Virus record (IMG/VR): IMGVR_UViG_3300020457_000026
Coordinates: 1 to 37,823 of that record
Reading direction: 5' to 3' (one strand)
From: a virus
Length of the DNA stretch: 37,823 nucleotides
Within the stretch, counting starts at the first letter, position 1. Each line of letters starts with the position of its first letter. Shown one piece after another: positions 1-7,175 of this stretch. A program made the position numbers and the translations under genes. The notes beneath the pieces were generated by a model. It ran no database searches and had not been told where the DNA came from. It was given only the letters and a program-made list of their open reading frames with translations.

Positions 1-912
1 CAACTTAGTTATCCTACTAAGTATGGTAATAAACCAAGAGGTACACAACCAATCACCACCAATCGTAGTATGATTCGTAGAACCTTTGATGAAAAAGGTG
101 TGGATTATGCAAGTGAACTAACACTACAAAATGTAAAAGATTTGAATTCTATTATTGGGTGGAACATATTACATGGTTATGATTTTTACAGATTGAGTTC
201 TGATATGGCACCGTGGAAAACAGAGTATGAGTGGGATGACCTAAAGGATATTGATGAGATTAAACAATGGTTACATTCAGCAGGTACAATGGCAATTACA
301 CATGGTGTTAGATTAACCGCACATCCTGGCCCTTTCAATGTATTGGTATCACCAAATGAAAGTGTAGTTGAGAACACAATCAAGGATTTAACTATACATG
401 GTGATATCTTTGATATGATGGGTTTATCAAGAACACCACACAACAAACTAAACATACATTGTAATGGAGTGTATGGAGATAAGTTATCAGCTATGGATAG
501 GTTCTGTAAGAACTTTGAACGATTACCTGAATCAGTACAAACAAGATTGACCGTTGAGAATGATGATAAAGCAAGTATGTACTCAGTAGTGGATTTGATG
601 TATATCCATGAGAGAATCGGAATACCAATCGTATTTGATTATCACCACCACAAATTCTGTACAGGTGATTTATCAGAAGAACAAGCTTTAGAGTTGGCTA
701 TATCAACATGGCCAGATAACATCACACCAGTAGTTCACTATTCGGAATCTCGTAGTAGAGAACAATTAGATGAAAGTATTAGACCACAAGCACATTCAGA
801 TTATGTGATTGATTACATTGATACCTATGGCCACAATGTAGATATTATGGTTGAAGCAAAACACAAAGAATTGGCTGTAGATAAATACAAGGAGTTACAT
901 AATGTATTATGA
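1..912 (+). CDS. uvdE: UV damage endonuclease UvdE/UvsE (5' partial)
   Basis: TIM-barrel endonuclease that nicks DNA 5' of UV photoproducts and starts alternative excision repair. The frame is open to base 1 (first residues QLSYPTKYG), and the TTNRS stretch before the internal ATG at 70 matches the family N-terminus, so the true start lies just left of the window and ATG 70 is internal. The metal-site motifs appear in family order: AHPGPF, NIHCNGVYGDK, VENDD, FDYHHH, VVHYSESR, HSDY and VEAKHKE. Length is close to the usual ~300 residues. It overlaps the next gene by 11 bases. It probably repairs phage DNA in sunlit water. Family identity is secure; the start is not visible. Confidence 0.93.
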   Translation, partial: QLSYPTKYGNKPRGTQPITTNRSMIRRTFDEKGVDYASELTLQNVKDLNSIIGWNILHGYDFYRLSSDMAPWKTEYEWDDLKDIDEIKQWLHSAGTMAITHGVRLTAHPGPFNVLVSPNESVVENTIKDLTIHGDIFDMMGLSRTPHNKLNIHCNGVYGDKLSAMDRFCKNFERLPESVQTRLTVENDDKASMYSVVDLMYIHERIGIPIVFDYHHHKFCTGDLSEEQALELAISTWPDNITPVVHYSESRSREQLDESIRPQAHSDYVIDYIDTYGHNVDIMVEAKHKELAVDKYKELHNVL

Positions 913-1224: not shown

Positions 1225-1811
1225 TGTTACAAGGTTTTTTAAGTGGATTAATCTTATTTACATCATTCAGTGCTAGGACACCTAACGATGATGCAATCAA
1301 TAAAGATGATTATGAGATTGCTCTTGGATTTAAGAGTGAGAACATATATGTCAAAAGAGATTGGGAACGAGAGTTAGGACAATCTTATATTGATGATGAG
1401 ATATGGTTTGAATTCGAACCTAAGAATCTATACATTAAACCACAATATGTTAATAAGACATCTCGTGATTTAAAATATGGTAAAGCAGATATTCGTTATC
1501 GACAAGGTGATTACTCAGTTGGATATACTGGTTTATATTCTGATGACCAATTCGAGAGTGGTATTTCGATGGGTATTCAAAAGAAAAAAGAAATCAACGA
1601 TAAACTTTCATTAGAAGCAAAATGGGATGGTTATTGGTTTCGTAATGAGTTGACTGGATATAGTAGGGTTGATATGGAGGATTATCTTCAGATTAATTGG
1701 AAGATTTCTGATAAGTTGATACTTACTAATATCTTTGATTACAATGATATCAAAGGTAGAAAATACTATAAGTTTAAAGTAGGAGTAGAATATGAACTTG
1801 GCGGAAATTAA
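1224..1811 (+). CDS. Predicted secreted small outer-membrane beta-barrel-like protein, 195 aa
   Basis: A hydrophobic N-terminus (LQGFLSGLILFTSFSA) could act as a signal peptide, although it lacks a clear basic n-region. The rest is a run of amphipathic strands with alternating polar and aromatic residues, for example YEIALGFKSENIYVKRDWE, LYIKPQYV, DYSVGYTGLY and FESGISMGIQKK, ending in YKFKVGVEYELGGN. This is the texture of a small 8-10-strand outer-membrane barrel. It sits in an overlapping operon between a small basic and a small acidic protein. No specific family recognised. A periplasmic beta-rich protein is the main alternative. Confidence 0.6.
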   Translation: MLQGFLSGLILFTSFSARTPNDDAINKDDYEIALGFKSENIYVKRDWERELGQSYIDDEIWFEFEPKNLYIKPQYVNKTSRDLKYGKADIRYRQGDYSVGYTGLYSDDQFESGISMGIQKKKEINDKLSLEAKWDGYWFRNELTGYSRVDMEDYLQINWKISDKLILTNIFDYNDIKGRKYYKFKVGVEYELGGN

Positions 1812-1944
1812 AAAGAAGTTAGAAGAGGCATACAATACTGAAGATTGGAATCTTGTAGAGGATTTAATTGATGTACTCGATACTTATATTACACTTGGTG
1901 AAGAAGATATAATCGATGAGTGGGATGATGATGAGATTGATTAA
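1792..1944 (+). CDS. Small acidic protein, 50 aa
   Basis: The ATG at 1792 lies inside the end of the upstream barrel-like gene but has a clear AGGAG ribosome site at 1781-1785, which supports this start. The protein is mostly helical and very acidic, with a C-terminus of alternating Asp and Ile (EEDIIDEWDDDEID). It ends 3 bases before the tmRNA 5' end. Function unknown; a small acidic adaptor or DNA-mimic role is possible but unsupported. Confidence 0.6.
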   Translation: MNLAEIKKKLEEAYNTEDWNLVEDLIDVLDTYITLGEEDIIDEWDDDEID

Positions 1945-1947
1945 TAT

Positions 1948-2291
1948 GGGGCTGAACGGATTCGACAGCTCGTGGATGAGATTAAGTGCAACGGAGTTTG
2001 AGCAAGACTCGCTACAAAAGGTTCATCTATGTTAATTGGCAATACTGCTAATTTCGCTTACGCTTAATGTGTAAGGCTCGTTCCAAGACTCAGATATTGG
2101 GTAACGGGTTCATATATCTGAAAGACCTCACTTTAGTTAGGAAGAAGTTAGTGATTAAAGAAACTACCAGTTCTCAAGACCTGTACATAACTTGATAAGG
2201 GTTGTTGGTAACACATTCGGAACCATCTAAAGTTGTAAACGACTTAACTTTGAAAGGAGTATGGACTGGGGTTCGATTCCCCACAGCTCCA
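1948..2291 (+). ncRNA. ssrA: tmRNA (transfer-messenger RNA), phage-encoded
   Basis: Rescues stalled ribosomes by acting first as tRNA-Ala, then as mRNA for a degradation tag. The 5' GGGGCTG pairs with 3' CAGCTCC to form a 7-bp acceptor stem with one G-U pair. The hallmark GGATTCGAC follows the 5' arm. The T arm is TGGGG-TTCGATT-CCCCA, with discriminator A at 2291. CCA is not encoded (ACT follows), so it must be added after transcription. The tag frame begins at GGC 2038-2040 and reads GNTANFAYA, then TAA 2065-2067. An initial Gly is known in Bacteroidota/Chlorobi tags. The end AYA departs from the usual LAA. Boundaries rest on the acceptor pairing; pseudoknots were not folded. Confidence 0.93.
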
Positions 2292-2345: not shown

Positions 2346-2900
2346 ATGAGTGTTTATGAAGAACTTTATGATGATTACATTATGAAGAACAGATTAATTT
2401 ACATATTAGCTATACTAATTCTTTTATTTAATGGATTTGTATGGACGAACATTTTTGACAATTACAAGGAATTCCATAGGGATTCAGTTCGCGAACTAAA
2501 ATCAGAAAACGACAGATTAAATTCTATCGTTGATGAGTTTAAACTTGAGGGAATGGAAGTGACAGTAACTATGTATCATCCAGTTCGTTCTCAGACTGAT
2601 TCTACACCGAACATTCTCGCGGATGGAACGCGTATTAGGGTACACAAAGCTAGTGAGTATCGATTTATAGCGGTGAGTAGAAATCTTCTGAAACGACATG
2701 GTGGATTCTTAGAGTACGGTGATTTTGTAGTTCTCAAAGGTACAGGTCAAAAGGATGGTGTGTATCAAGTAAAAGATACTATGAACAAGAGATTTGTCAA
2801 TCGTATTGATATATTAGAATCTCCTGGTACAAAACCATACAAGGTTGATAGTGCTAAAATAATGAAAACAGATTTAGTTTTAAAAAATAATATTGAATAA
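2346..2900 (+). CDS. Membrane-anchored 3D-domain (RlpA-like double-psi barrel) protein, 184 aa
   Basis: One transmembrane segment at about residues 16-35 is followed by a short coiled coil (DSVRELKSENDRLNSIVDEF) and a C-terminal 3D domain. The domain shows its three Asp-containing motifs: SQTDSTPNILADGT, QVKDTMNKR and NRIDI. The family is related to MltA/RlpA double-psi barrels and is found in peptidoglycan-active proteins, including phage ones. The layout fits an inner-membrane-anchored enzyme reaching the cell wall, so a lysis or entry role is plausible. The ribosome site AAGGTG is at 2330-2335. An alternative in-frame start is Met13 (2382). Confidence 0.72.
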   Translation: MSVYEELYDDYIMKNRLIYILAILILLFNGFVWTNIFDNYKEFHRDSVRELKSENDRLNSIVDEFKLEGMEVTVTMYHPVRSQTDSTPNILADGTRIRVHKASEYRFIAVSRNLLKRHGGFLEYGDFVVLKGTGQKDGVYQVKDTMNKRFVNRIDILESPGTKPYKVDSAKIMKTDLVLKNNIE

Positions 2901-2941: not shown

Positions 2942-4579
2942 TTGAAAAAATGGTTTTATGAGAGAAGTAGGTTTGGTACATTCAAATCTAATACTACATA
3001 TCACAAACTAATATCTATGTCCGAAACAGAGTTCGTTGAATGGGCACAATTACTTAGAAAAGAAGTTACTGAACAATGGGATGAGTTTGGAACGCCACCT
3101 ATGATTGGTAAGGATGAAACAAAGATAATAGAATCTTTTTCTAAATTAAAAGATAATCCTTGTAACTTTCTTGAAAAGGATTTGACTGGTGATGAAGAAT
3201 CACTTGGTATTATACAGAACTTCAATAAAGATGCAAGTTCTGTTAATCAGTTTTTTCCTACTATGTTGAAAACAAAGATATCTTCTGGTAAAAGTGCAGA
3301 TGGTGGATTAAGTATTTATGACCACTTTGCAGACCCTGATATGGAAGAGAAGTTTGTTAGGATTATGGCAAGAGCTGTAAAGAGAGATTCCATGTATAGT
3401 TGGAGTAGAAGTATTGTAGATAAGGTAGATGAGAATCCATTTTGGAATGGTCAAGGTGCTATTGAATTTATAAAAGATGTTTCTGAGGGTAAAGTATTTA
3501 TTGATAAGTATTCTGATTTAGATATATGGATTGCAAAAGTAAACACAAAAACAATTTCTAATTATGGAACTTTTAATCAAGAATATATTGGTCATGGTAA
3601 TTTATATCTTACAGCAGAACAAGTTCAAGAACTAAAAGATAATGGATATCTTAATGATACTCAAGTATCTAATATAGATAGAATAGAATCCGAGTTTACA
3701 TCAGAAGCAGGAACCACACAAAGTTATATTTATCAGATTCGTTGGTATGATAAAACAGATGGTATCTTTCCAAAGATATTACAAGTGTTTAGATTATCAT
3801 GTGGACAACCTGCTGTAAACTTTCCAGCACTAACTGCAAAGTATTTATATGAAACCTATACATCTCATGTAGAGGAACCAATTACAATTTATGATAGTAG
3901 TAGTGGTTGGGGTGGTAGGATAATTGGTGCTATGAGTATGAGGAAGAAAGCACACTATGTTGGTACAGACCCTAATCCAGATACAAGTGGTAGGTATCAG
4001 GCAGTTGCAGATTTTTATAATAACAATTGTGTGGATAATGAAAGTGAAACATTCCAAAAGTTTTTTGAGGTAGAAAAGAAAAGTAATACCTACGAAGTGT
4101 TTACAGATGGTAGTGAATTAATTGGGAACAATCCTGAGTTTCAGAAGTATAAGGGTAAATTAGATATGGTTTTTACATCCCCACCTTACTTCAATAGAGA
4201 ACAATATTCACAAGATGAGAATCAAAGTTTTAAAGCATATTCCGAGTATGATGATTGGAGAGATAATTTTTTAGAACCGACTTTAACAACGGCTTATAAT
4301 TATTTACGAGAGGATAGATATATCCTTTGGAACATTGCAGATATAAAAATTGGGAGTAGTACTTACTACCCATTAGAACAAGATAGTATTGATATCCTAA
4401 CTAAATTAGGGTGTGAATATAAAGGTAAACTTAAAATGTTGATGACACGGATGGTTGGGTTAGACCCAAGTAAGACTGGTATAAAGAATGCTGTACAACA
4501 CAATGGAAAAGCATACAAGTTCGAACCGATATTCGTGTTCTACAAAGGAGCACAAAATGAAATTCAGAAATTGGGATAA
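2942..4579 (+). CDS. DNA methyltransferase (SPPY type), 545 aa
   Basis: SAM-dependent base methyltransferase. The SAM-binding motif I is DSSSGWGGR at 318-326, followed by GTDPN. The catalytic motif IV is TSPPYF at 412-417, typical of amino (N4-C or N6-A) methylases; no PCQ motif of C5 methylases is seen. Motif I precedes motif IV. The ~300-residue N-terminal region is unrecognised and may hold target recognition. The start is TTG, chosen because AAGGAG (2931-2936) sits 5 bases upstream. No partner restriction enzyme is visible. It overlaps the next gene by 23 bases, opening the modification-like cassette. Target base and sequence unknown. Confidence 0.82.
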   Translation: MKKWFYERSRFGTFKSNTTYHKLISMSETEFVEWAQLLRKEVTEQWDEFGTPPMIGKDETKIIESFSKLKDNPCNFLEKDLTGDEESLGIIQNFNKDASSVNQFFPTMLKTKISSGKSADGGLSIYDHFADPDMEEKFVRIMARAVKRDSMYSWSRSIVDKVDENPFWNGQGAIEFIKDVSEGKVFIDKYSDLDIWIAKVNTKTISNYGTFNQEYIGHGNLYLTAEQVQELKDNGYLNDTQVSNIDRIESEFTSEAGTTQSYIYQIRWYDKTDGIFPKILQVFRLSCGQPAVNFPALTAKYLYETYTSHVEEPITIYDSSSGWGGRIIGAMSMRKKAHYVGTDPNPDTSGRYQAVADFYNNNCVDNESETFQKFFEVEKKSNTYEVFTDGSELIGNNPEFQKYKGKLDMVFTSPPYFNREQYSQDENQSFKAYSEYDDWRDNFLEPTLTTAYNYLREDRYILWNIADIKIGSSTYYPLEQDSIDILTKLGCEYKGKLKMLMTRMVGLDPSKTGIKNAVQHNGKAYKFEPIFVFYKGAQNEIQKLG

Positions 4580-5891
4580 GGAATATGATAAACCTTATCA
4601 TAATGGAAAACAATGGATGTATGATAAAACACCAATCTATGATAATATATTAGATTGTTTTTTAGAAACACAAAGACCAGAGGGTGATAAATCTACAAGA
4701 GAAAAATATGGTAACACGAGATTGAGAGACCCTTTTAGAAAAATAAACAAATATAAAATCCAACAATATCTTGGACACATGGAAAAAAATATGTATAAAG
4801 AAGTTGATTGGGTAGAAGATGATAATGGTAAAATTGTTGCTATTATTCATTATTACGATTTAAATAAAATGTCTACCAAAGAGAAAAAGGTAAAATCTTT
4901 TTGTGGACAAGAATATATTTTGGATAAAGAACGAGGTGATGTTTACATCAAAGAGATGGCATGTTATCCTGGTCATGAGGAATGGTTAGAAAAGTTAGTA
5001 GAAAAACATATTGCAAAACCAAAAGAATCAAACAAGTTCTTTGATACAGAAGAACCAATCACAATTGTAGAGATTGATAATCAGTTGAAAAGAAATAAAG
5101 ATATATTAAAAAATTTAGGATTTGAATGTATCGATAATATCGTAACTTCGTTTGCAGATGTTTATGGTATATGGGTTAAAGGTGGTGAGAATTTAGAACG
5201 ACCTGATAAGGCACAAGAGTTATCATTACAGAGATTAGATTGTGATACACAAGATACAAAAGAGTTGATGGAACAAATTCTAAAACTTAACATTGATGAT
5301 TTTGCTAATCACTATTCTAATTACAACAAAGGAAATACTTGGAAAGGTATGGTGGTTCGTGGTTATGGTGGATTAGTTGATTTCATTGTTAAACCTGCAG
5401 AGATGGTTAACTCTTGGAAAAAAGAAAACAAAGAGAAGATGGATTGGAAAGTAAAAGATACACCATTGAGAAAACAAGTACCTGCTGTAGAAAAGTTTGC
5501 AGATATACTTGGTGATTACGAACACGAGAGAATCAGAATCCTAATGTTAAAAGAGGGAGAGGGTGAACTTGAAAGACATACTGATAGACAAGATGTAGAG
5601 GCTGGTATTGGTGATGGTCAATGGGCAAGGTTACATTTTCCTTTACAAACAAATCCAAAGGTAGAATTCAAACAATGGAATGCTGATGGTACAAGTACCA
5701 AATGTAAAATGGGTGAGGGTGAACTATGGTATTTAGATATGAGAAAACCACACACTGCAGTTAACTTTGGTGAACAAGATAGATACCACTTAATTATAGA
5801 TGTTAAATCAGACCAACGATTAAGAGATTGGTTGGTAAGAAGTAGTGAGAAGTATCCATCTACAAAACAAGTTGATGATTATATAGAATGA
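4557..5891 (+). CDS. GNAT-like domain fused to Fe(II)/2-oxoglutarate dioxygenase (Asp/Asn beta-hydroxylase-like), 444 aa
   Basis: The C-terminal ~130 residues carry an aspartyl/asparaginyl hydroxylase-type jelly roll: HTD (H341, D343), RLHFPLQTNP, WYLDMRKPH (H399) and RYHLIIDV (R409 for 2-oxoglutarate). The iron triad H-x-D...H is therefore complete. Residues ~75-210 (GKIVAIIHYY, YIKEMACYPGHEEWLEKLV, NKDILKNLGFE, VYGIWVKG) look like a GNAT acyltransferase fold; this part is inferred. The start at 4557 has AAAGGAG just upstream and is preferred to an ATG 69 bases earlier. It lies between a DNA methylase and a YunG-like protein, so the substrate could be a DNA base, an amino-acid adduct or a protein. 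Confidence 0.75.
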   Translation: MKFRNWDKEYDKPYHNGKQWMYDKTPIYDNILDCFLETQRPEGDKSTREKYGNTRLRDPFRKINKYKIQQYLGHMEKNMYKEVDWVEDDNGKIVAIIHYYDLNKMSTKEKKVKSFCGQEYILDKERGDVYIKEMACYPGHEEWLEKLVEKHIAKPKESNKFFDTEEPITIVEIDNQLKRNKDILKNLGFECIDNIVTSFADVYGIWVKGGENLERPDKAQELSLQRLDCDTQDTKELMEQILKLNIDDFANHYSNYNKGNTWKGMVVRGYGGLVDFIVKPAEMVNSWKKENKEKMDWKVKDTPLRKQVPAVEKFADILGDYEHERIRILMLKEGEGELERHTDRQDVEAGIGDGQWARLHFPLQTNPKVEFKQWNADGTSTKCKMGEGELWYLDMRKPHTAVNFGEQDRYHLIIDVKSDQRLRDWLVRSSEKYPSTKQVDDYIE

Positions 5892-6356: not shown

Positions 6357-7175
6357 ATGAATAAATTTTTTGAACCTACATATGAAGATAATAGTGGGAA
6401 AGTGTGGGGAGTTTCAGAGTTATTAGATTTAGTAAAAGATTGGGAAGACCCTAATCCTAAAGTAGTAATAGAAGAGTATGATGGAATCAAAGTTGTACGA
6501 GATGATTTATTACATCATGGTAGTAAGATTAGATTCATTGATAAGTTTATAAAAGATACACCAGCAAAAGAGATTGTATTTGGAAGTTGTCCTGCTCAAG
6601 GTTATGCACAAATATCATTACCTGCTGTTACTGAAAAATATGGAAAGAAAACTATATTGTTCATGGCCAGAAGAAAACCTGAAAACTATCATGAGTATCA
6701 AAAAAGAGGAATGGATTTAGGTGCTATATATAAATGGGTGAACATGGGAATGTTATCAGTAACACAAGCAAGAGCTAGAGAGTATGTAAATGAAAGTCCT
6801 GATACAAGAGTATTATTTCCTATTGGATTAGAACATCCAACAAACATTGGTAGTATGATAAAGGTTATTAGAGAAAATTTAAAAGATATAGATTTTAGTG
6901 AGATATGGAGTGTTGGTAGTAGTGGTTCTTTGAGTAGAGGATTACAATTAGCATTTCCTGATAAAGATGTAAATGTAGTTTCGGTTGGACACAAGATGAG
7001 TGAAAGAGAAATAGGTAGGGCTAAGTTCTATCGTTCAGAATATAAATTTGAAAAGGTAATACCTGAATCAGAAATGCCACCATTTCCATCGGCTCCAAGT
7101 TATGATGCTAAGGCTTGGAAGTTCATTAAAGAATATGCTAAACCAAATGCAATTTTTTGGAATGTTGGCTATTAG
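6357..7175 (+). CDS. Fold-type II PLP enzyme (ACC deaminase / D-cysteine desulfhydrase-like), 272 aa
   Basis: The N-terminal GSKIRFIDKF carries the likely Schiff-base lysine K57, matching the GNK(T/L)RK site of the family. SCPAQGYAQ matches the substrate-loop region (usually GGxQSNH), and GSSGSLSRGL is the PLP-phosphate loop. At 272 residues it is shorter than the usual ~325-340. It is the last gene of the 2942-7175 cassette and is followed by a transcription gap. PLP enzymes occur in phage thymidine-hypermodification pathways, which makes an amino-acid-to-base modification role worth testing. A metabolic amino-acid role is the alternative. Confidence 0.72.
   Translation: MNKFFEPTYEDNSGKVWGVSELLDLVKDWEDPNPKVVIEEYDGIKVVRDDLLHHGSKIRFIDKFIKDTPAKEIVFGSCPAQGYAQISLPAVTEKYGKKTILFMARRKPENYHEYQKRGMDLGAIYKWVNMGMLSVTQARAREYVNESPDTRVLFPIGLEHPTNIGSMIKVIRENLKDIDFSEIWSVGSSGSLSRGLQLAFPDKDVNVVSVGHKMSEREIGRAKFYRSEYKFEKVIPESEMPPFPSAPSYDAKAWKFIKEYAKPNAIFWNVGY

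Follow-up and report, generated by a model that had tools for sequence, protein, structure and literature searches.

A phage-encoded one-piece tmRNA with the tag GNTANFAYA and its relatives with long two-part tags

The tmRNA gene and its locus

Analysis of a virus record in IMG/VR, 37,823 bases long (this whole stretch of DNA is referred to as the window) revealed a tmRNA gene of the one-piece standard form on the plus strand. The Rfam model RF00023 matched positions 1948 to 2294 (347 nt) from model position 1 to 374 with 104.4 bits (E 6.1e-40; gathering score, 47). The 5' strand of the acceptor stem, GGGGCTG (1948 to 1954), is paired at 7 of 7 positions with the 3' strand CAGCTCC (2284 to 2290), and the third pair, a G-U, is the alanine signature G3-U70. 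The T arm of the tRNA-like domain (TGGGG-TTCGATT-CCCCA, 2267 to 2283) was placed by the Rfam alignment and contains covarying pairs. The sequence CCA is not encoded at the 3' end, where discriminator base A2291 is followed by CTA (2292 to 2294). A complete phage tmRNA with acceptor stem and T arm at 1948 to 2291 had been proposed from the letters alone; this molecule and its start were confirmed by the covariance model, and the end was shifted, since 2291 is the discriminator base and the match runs to 2294. ARAGORN, run on the window, did not call the gene.

The tag frame GNTANFAYA lies after pseudoknot 1 at positions 2038 to 2067 (plus strand), with the resume codon GGC at 2038 to 2040 and the stop codon TAA at 2065 to 2067 (GGC AAT ACT GCT AAT TTC GCT TAC GCT TAA). 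This reading, the one originally predicted, is backed by orthologs. ARAGORN called the ortholog L084/L085 with a coding part from nt 91 and the tag GTQFNYAYA, which is the same register as in the window; the short-tag forms resume 90 to 91 nt from the 5' end. A further relative, L200, encodes the identical tag with three silent third-position changes (TTC>TTT, GCT>GCC, and GCT>GCG). Among 11 short-tag tmRNAs, the window included, two-sided compensatory changes were found in 20 of 61 consensus pairs. A chance origin of the window tmRNA is ruled out by the stem pairing, the G3-U70 pair, the compensatory changes, and the silent changes in L200. These results indicate that the window tmRNA is an ordinary molecule in its fold, with a real but unusual tag.

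The gene has conserved neighbors. A small acidic open reading frame of 50 amino acids (1792 to 1944, plus strand) ends 3 nt before the tmRNA; its cluster was present in 54 of 83 distinct tmRNA loci, where the quartiles of its end lie between -6 and -1 nt relative to the tmRNA. The frame matched no Pfam or PHROG family over the cutoff. The downstream gene (2346 to 2900, plus strand; phrog_21574, unknown function) belongs to a cluster found in 65 of the 83 loci and served as the tree marker c0. Both neighbor clusters include long- and short-tag forms. No excess of promoters or terminators was found near the tmRNA gene. Genes resembling peptide deformylase (cluster 5) and IMP dehydrogenase (cluster 12), named from sequence reading, lie near the tmRNA in L152 and in many long-tag loci.

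Matches of the baseplate wedge protein identified the carrier as a contractile-tail phage, in agreement with the predicted phage setting. The nearest isolates for this protein were Microcystis phage Mel-JY01 (47%) and the Flavobacterium phages 'immuto' (40%); RF00023 had no match over its cutoff in the two isolate records tested. A Bacteroidota host is hinted at by weak clues, namely, the leading Gly of the tag, the Flavobacterium phages at 40%, and the unencoded CCA; the nearest isolate infects Microcystis. Phage tmRNAs had been called uncommon, which holds to a lesser degree than supposed, because they form a known class that was counted in 402 of 18,146 phage genomes in the text available from PMC9004378. 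Elsewhere in the window, a protein with an Asp/Arg hydroxylase domain (4488 to 5891) and a product matching a PHROG named threonine dehydratase (6357 to 7175) are encoded downstream of an N4/N6 methyltransferase-like gene.

Short and long tags in related phages

The UvdE-like UV endonuclease encoded at 70 to 912 (plus strand; PF03851, E 9.6e-60) was used as the query for relatives. The protein search gave 442 relatives, 80 of which were kept for RF00023. Matches over the cutoff were obtained in 10 of 50 and in 3 of 31 records; of the latter three, one had come from a pattern search and is unrelated. Thus, 12 of the 80 UvdE relatives, most of which are fragments, carry a tmRNA. A broad pattern for the tmRNA 5' part yielded one unrelated tmRNA in viral contigs (tag AEKNFSLAA). 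Weak RF00023 matches of about 76 nt at first resembled tRNA-like decoys, but those called by ARAGORN were ordinary tRNAs, many of them tRNA-Ala.

The 12 tmRNAs found through UvdE encode GTQFNYAYA, GNTANYAYA, GTYSNVAYA, and GNTSYAMAA (two each) and four tags of 34 to 38 residues. The ending AYA was present in 6 of 6 short-tag records that had been found without use of the tag in the search. The tmRNAs with GNTSYAMAA, at positions 1501 to 1828 of L113 and L114, are of the canonical type. A short-tag pattern search gave 12 contigs, 11 of which were tested with RF00023 and all scored over the cutoff; the pattern fixes AYA and is uninformative on the tag ending. With its ending AYA, the window tag lacks the LAA-like tripeptide ending in AA of a ClpXP-type ssrA degron.

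Bacterial tags were compared in 148 Bacteroidota genomes with 141 tmRNAs, a sample outside which the phage's own host may lie. ARAGORN read 137 of the 141, and 133 of these ended in LAA, MAA, or YAA. Manual reading gave a canonical frame in 3 of the other 4 ARAGORN calls and in all 4 uncalled tmRNAs. In total, 140 of the 141 were read as ending in [LMY]AA, one had no clear reading, and none was read as ending in -YA, so that the -AYA ending is as unusual as had been suspected. Neither the window tag nor a module-bearing tag (described below) was read among the 141, and the possibility that an identical tag exists in the host was thus not borne out in this sample. A scan of species genomes for N-Y-A-Y-A returned 11 stretches, of which 9 were reading frames for GENNYAYAA in records titled Parabacteroides, Massilibacteroides, Tannerellaceae, and one Lachnospiraceae metagenome-assembled genome; ARAGORN called a tmRNA with this tag in 7 of the 9. 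These nine (L206, L207, L209 to L213, L215, and L216) are Tannerellaceae-type genomes in which Tyr replaces the usual Leu. GENNYAYAA was the closest native tag found; it shares the Tyr and keeps the final AA. As the frames are read, Tyr near the tag end has a precedent in Tannerellaceae, and the loss of the last Ala is without precedent in the Bacteroidota sample.

Related phages have, at the syntenic position, tmRNAs with long tags of 34 to 42 residues. The four long tags from the UvdE relatives have SL[DE]GLxIDWHL in common and end in [ST]Y[AS]YA(A). The general layout is an N-terminal module (N-module), LxGLx[IV]DW[HQ][LIFM], followed by a linker that varies and by the C-terminal end [ST]YAYA(A). 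A degenerate N-module pattern matched 67 viral contigs, all of which were read as long tags; 66 were complete, comprising 47 distinct tags of 34 to 42 residues. Because this pattern dictates the module, a search anchored on the C-terminal end was also run. It gave 48 plus 42, i.e., 90, stretches, of which 82 were complete tags, 4 ran off the end of a contig, and 4 were not tmRNA. L.GL.[IV]DW was present in all 82 complete tags, with the module variants DWQ, DWHF, DWHI, and DWHM, and 38 tags were on contigs new to the set, which brought the count to 105 contigs (67 plus 38).

All 66 complete N-anchored tags contain the core [QE][PQ][STA]Y. Their endings are AYAA (35), AYA (18), and others (13); 44 end in AA, and 65 have Ala as the final residue. 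One variant ends in QPTYAFA. RF00023 scored over the cutoff in 41 of 42 long-tag and 6 of 6 short-tag records; the one long-tag record below it scored 42.7 bits and appears incomplete. Two-sided compensatory changes were found in 27 of 58 pairs of the long-tag tmRNAs (34 sequences). Seven of seven acceptor pairs were formed in 63 of 71 extracted tmRNA sequences, and G3-U70 was present in all 63; the other 8 were dropped from this count because their ends had probably been misplaced by the anchor rule. ARAGORN shortens the long tags in L083, L088, and L090 and misses the window tmRNA, and phage tags annotated in other records may be wrong.

None of 84,980 species genomes contained an exact match to the N-module pattern, which accepts only Asp or Glu at position 6 and would miss other variants there. 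The module was also absent from proteins outside tmRNAs among the loci collected. Searches of Pfam, PHROGs, and PDB with the tags returned chance-level matches alone (best PDB match, a chitinase motif, E 0.27). A tblastn search with a long tag against 50,697 phage records gave no match. A long-tag tmRNA used as the query matched 15 phage records and no plasmid, and the 10 matches listed align over the T-arm end only. A phage tmRNA family with a usually bipartite tag was not found described in the available text of the open-licence literature searched and is apparently undescribed there. Clipping or omission of the long tags by standard software may explain why they have not been noticed earlier.

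A midpoint-rooted tree of the downstream protein (68 rows) placed the window with seven other short-tag rows (support, 97/95). The short form required two changes and was nested inside the long-tag diversity. Switches between AYA and AYAA numbered 15 by parsimony, and at least 10 were forced by well-supported branches. The phage locus appears to have held the gene over a long history, as one orthologous tmRNA lineage of T4-type phages. The simplest reading would be that the window's branch lost the module; this direction is favored but not proven by a midpoint-rooted tree of a neighboring gene in phages that recombine.

Function of the tag and alternative explanations

The window probably encodes a functional phage tmRNA that works on host machinery, belongs to a lineage with a two-part tag, lacks the N-module in its own branch, and likely routes proteins to a protease differently from the host tag. 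No SmpB gene was found in 33 phage records, and host SmpB must therefore serve the phage tmRNA; host alanyl-tRNA synthetase and ribosomes would be used as well. Phages commonly degrade host mRNA, so that stalled ribosomes would arise. During infection, ribosomes stalled on broken mRNA would be rescued and the phage's own tag appended. The absence of the long two-part tag from the bacterial genomes searched suggests a phage-specific directing of tagged proteins, which would likely be handed to a protease by a route unlike that of the host tag. The C-terminal part resembles a degron, either of the kind recognized by ClpXP (AYAA) or of the kind read by Lon in Mollicutes (NYAFA), and the N-module would most likely deliver the protein to a protease or adaptor. 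The window's sublineage has no such module, and the C-terminal end alone (GNTANFAYA) would remain. The different fate of tagged proteins that had been suggested for the window is thus possible. Candidate partners were sought in 30 phage records: SspB and Lon were found in none and ClpP in 2. ClpP was rejected as a consistent companion of the tmRNA. The two ClpP-family genes, L441 (1498 to 2127, minus strand) and L442 (1501 to 2109, minus strand), lie in the larger long-tag records G102 and G013 and are absent from the other 28; L441, the one tested, was nearest to head maturation proteases in PHROGs.

The module may be a second recognition element at the peptide level, LxGLx[IV]DW[HQ], that takes products off the host route to a chosen partner (protease, adaptor, or other). 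The tag would then be a routing signal controlled by the phage, with the window's -AYA as a derived form, a reading to which we give an even chance. In 49 distinct 12-codon windows of the module, pairwise changes at codon positions 1, 2, and 3 numbered 1371, 1024, and 4428, and in the linker 1322, 1122, and 1407, i.e., without a third-position bias (kinship is ignored in both counts). A hairpin, GGCGA/UCGCU, overlaps the module start, and its first five codons are therefore not clean evidence of peptide constraint. This hairpin is kept in nearly all 34 sequences with no two-sided changes, and the GGG and TTG codons of the module are nearly fixed, as would be expected if the module were conserved as RNA structure rather than as a peptide element. 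Part of the conservation may indeed have this cause. As an explanation of the whole module, RNA structure is improbable, because the I-D-W-H-L-A codons outside the hairpin differ 415, 125, and 966 times at positions 1, 2, and 3 in 30 distinct sequences (pair counts that ignore kinship), which is the pattern of coding constraint. Constraint on the amino acids, extending through the module, argues against a resume codon further downstream with a module that is never translated. ARAGORN does put the long-tag frame at EYDYS... or GDSQPSYAYAA; however, the long-tag GGC lies 89 to 95 nt from the 5' end in 52 of 67 measured cases, after an A/T-rich sequence similar to that of the short forms with their GGC at 90 to 91 nt, and a downstream start is highly improbable.

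Two further explanations concern the tag ending. The -AYA end could be protective, i.e., unread by host ClpXP. Proteins bearing it would then survive, and the role of the phage tmRNA would be limited to recycling ribosomes and competing with host tmRNA. Judging from work on Escherichia coli, a tag without its final Ala could be recognized less well by ClpX, and the lack of -YA readings among the 141 sampled Bacteroidota tags fits this explanation. The frequent switching between -AYA and -AYAA in the long-tag relatives speaks against it, since it suggests that both endings do the same job, as does the nearly invariant last Ala; we regard a protective tag as rather unlikely. Alternatively, the tmRNA might have been captured recently from the host, the tag simply being that of the host. 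YAYA is common to the phage tags and GENNYAYAA of Tannerellaceae, but the module pattern has no exact match in the species genomes, neither the window's nor a module-bearing tag was read in the Bacteroidota sample (with its one unclear reading), and the gene has long been resident at one phage locus, which makes a recent capture very unlikely. Two conserved tag parts joined by a free linker are kept across divergent phages, and the pattern search of species genomes found no such tag. The bipartite tag makes the question of why phages carry their own tmRNA testable, by asking what binds LxGLxIDWH and where truncated proteins go; should a new degron or adaptor pair emerge, it would also be of use as a tool.

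Comparison with known tmRNA systems

Bacterial one-piece tmRNA (ssrA, RF00023; tags GENNYALAA and GENNYAYAA) has the fold, the G3-U70 pair, the T arm, and the resume register in common with the window. The leading Gly and the tag length of the window's form are those of Bacteroidota tags. The window tag differs in ending in -AYA instead of the final AA of the sampled Bacteroidota tags, and the related phages differ in their bipartite tags of 34 to 42 residues. The C terminus of the phage tags resembles both the -NYALAA/-NYAYAA ends of Bacteroidota and the -NYAFA ends of Mollicutes. In Mesoplasma florum, an extended ssrA tag that ends in NYAFA is read by Lon, according to the available text of PMC9382460 and PMC8138137. 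Like the long phage tags, this Mollicutes tag is of extended length, and -AYA has Tyr where -AFA has Phe; one phage variant ends in QPTYAFA. The window tag, in contrast, is short and ends in NFAYA, and its long relatives mostly end in YAYA(A), with the one in YAFA. An IDWH module goes unmentioned for the Mollicutes tag in the same portions of these two sources, and the 30 phage records lack a Lon gene.

Known phage tmRNAs include those of mycobacteriophages Bxz1 and Wildcat, Bacillus phage G, Melnitz (two piece), and DS6A, as described in accessible parts of PMC4131195, PMC9004378, and PMC7474061; the last reports the Wildcat tmRNA as the most highly expressed lytic gene. Compared by gene form alone, and as far as those parts describe them, these molecules and the present family are both phage-encoded RNAs for trans-translation, and the present family is one piece with either a short AYA tag or a long bipartite tag. 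The Melnitz tmRNA is described there as permuted and riboswitch linked, whereas the window gene has the standard order, with model positions 1 to 374 matched in one stretch. The DS6A form is described as little more than a tRNA-like domain; the window, in contrast, encodes the full 347 nt with tag frame and covarying helices.
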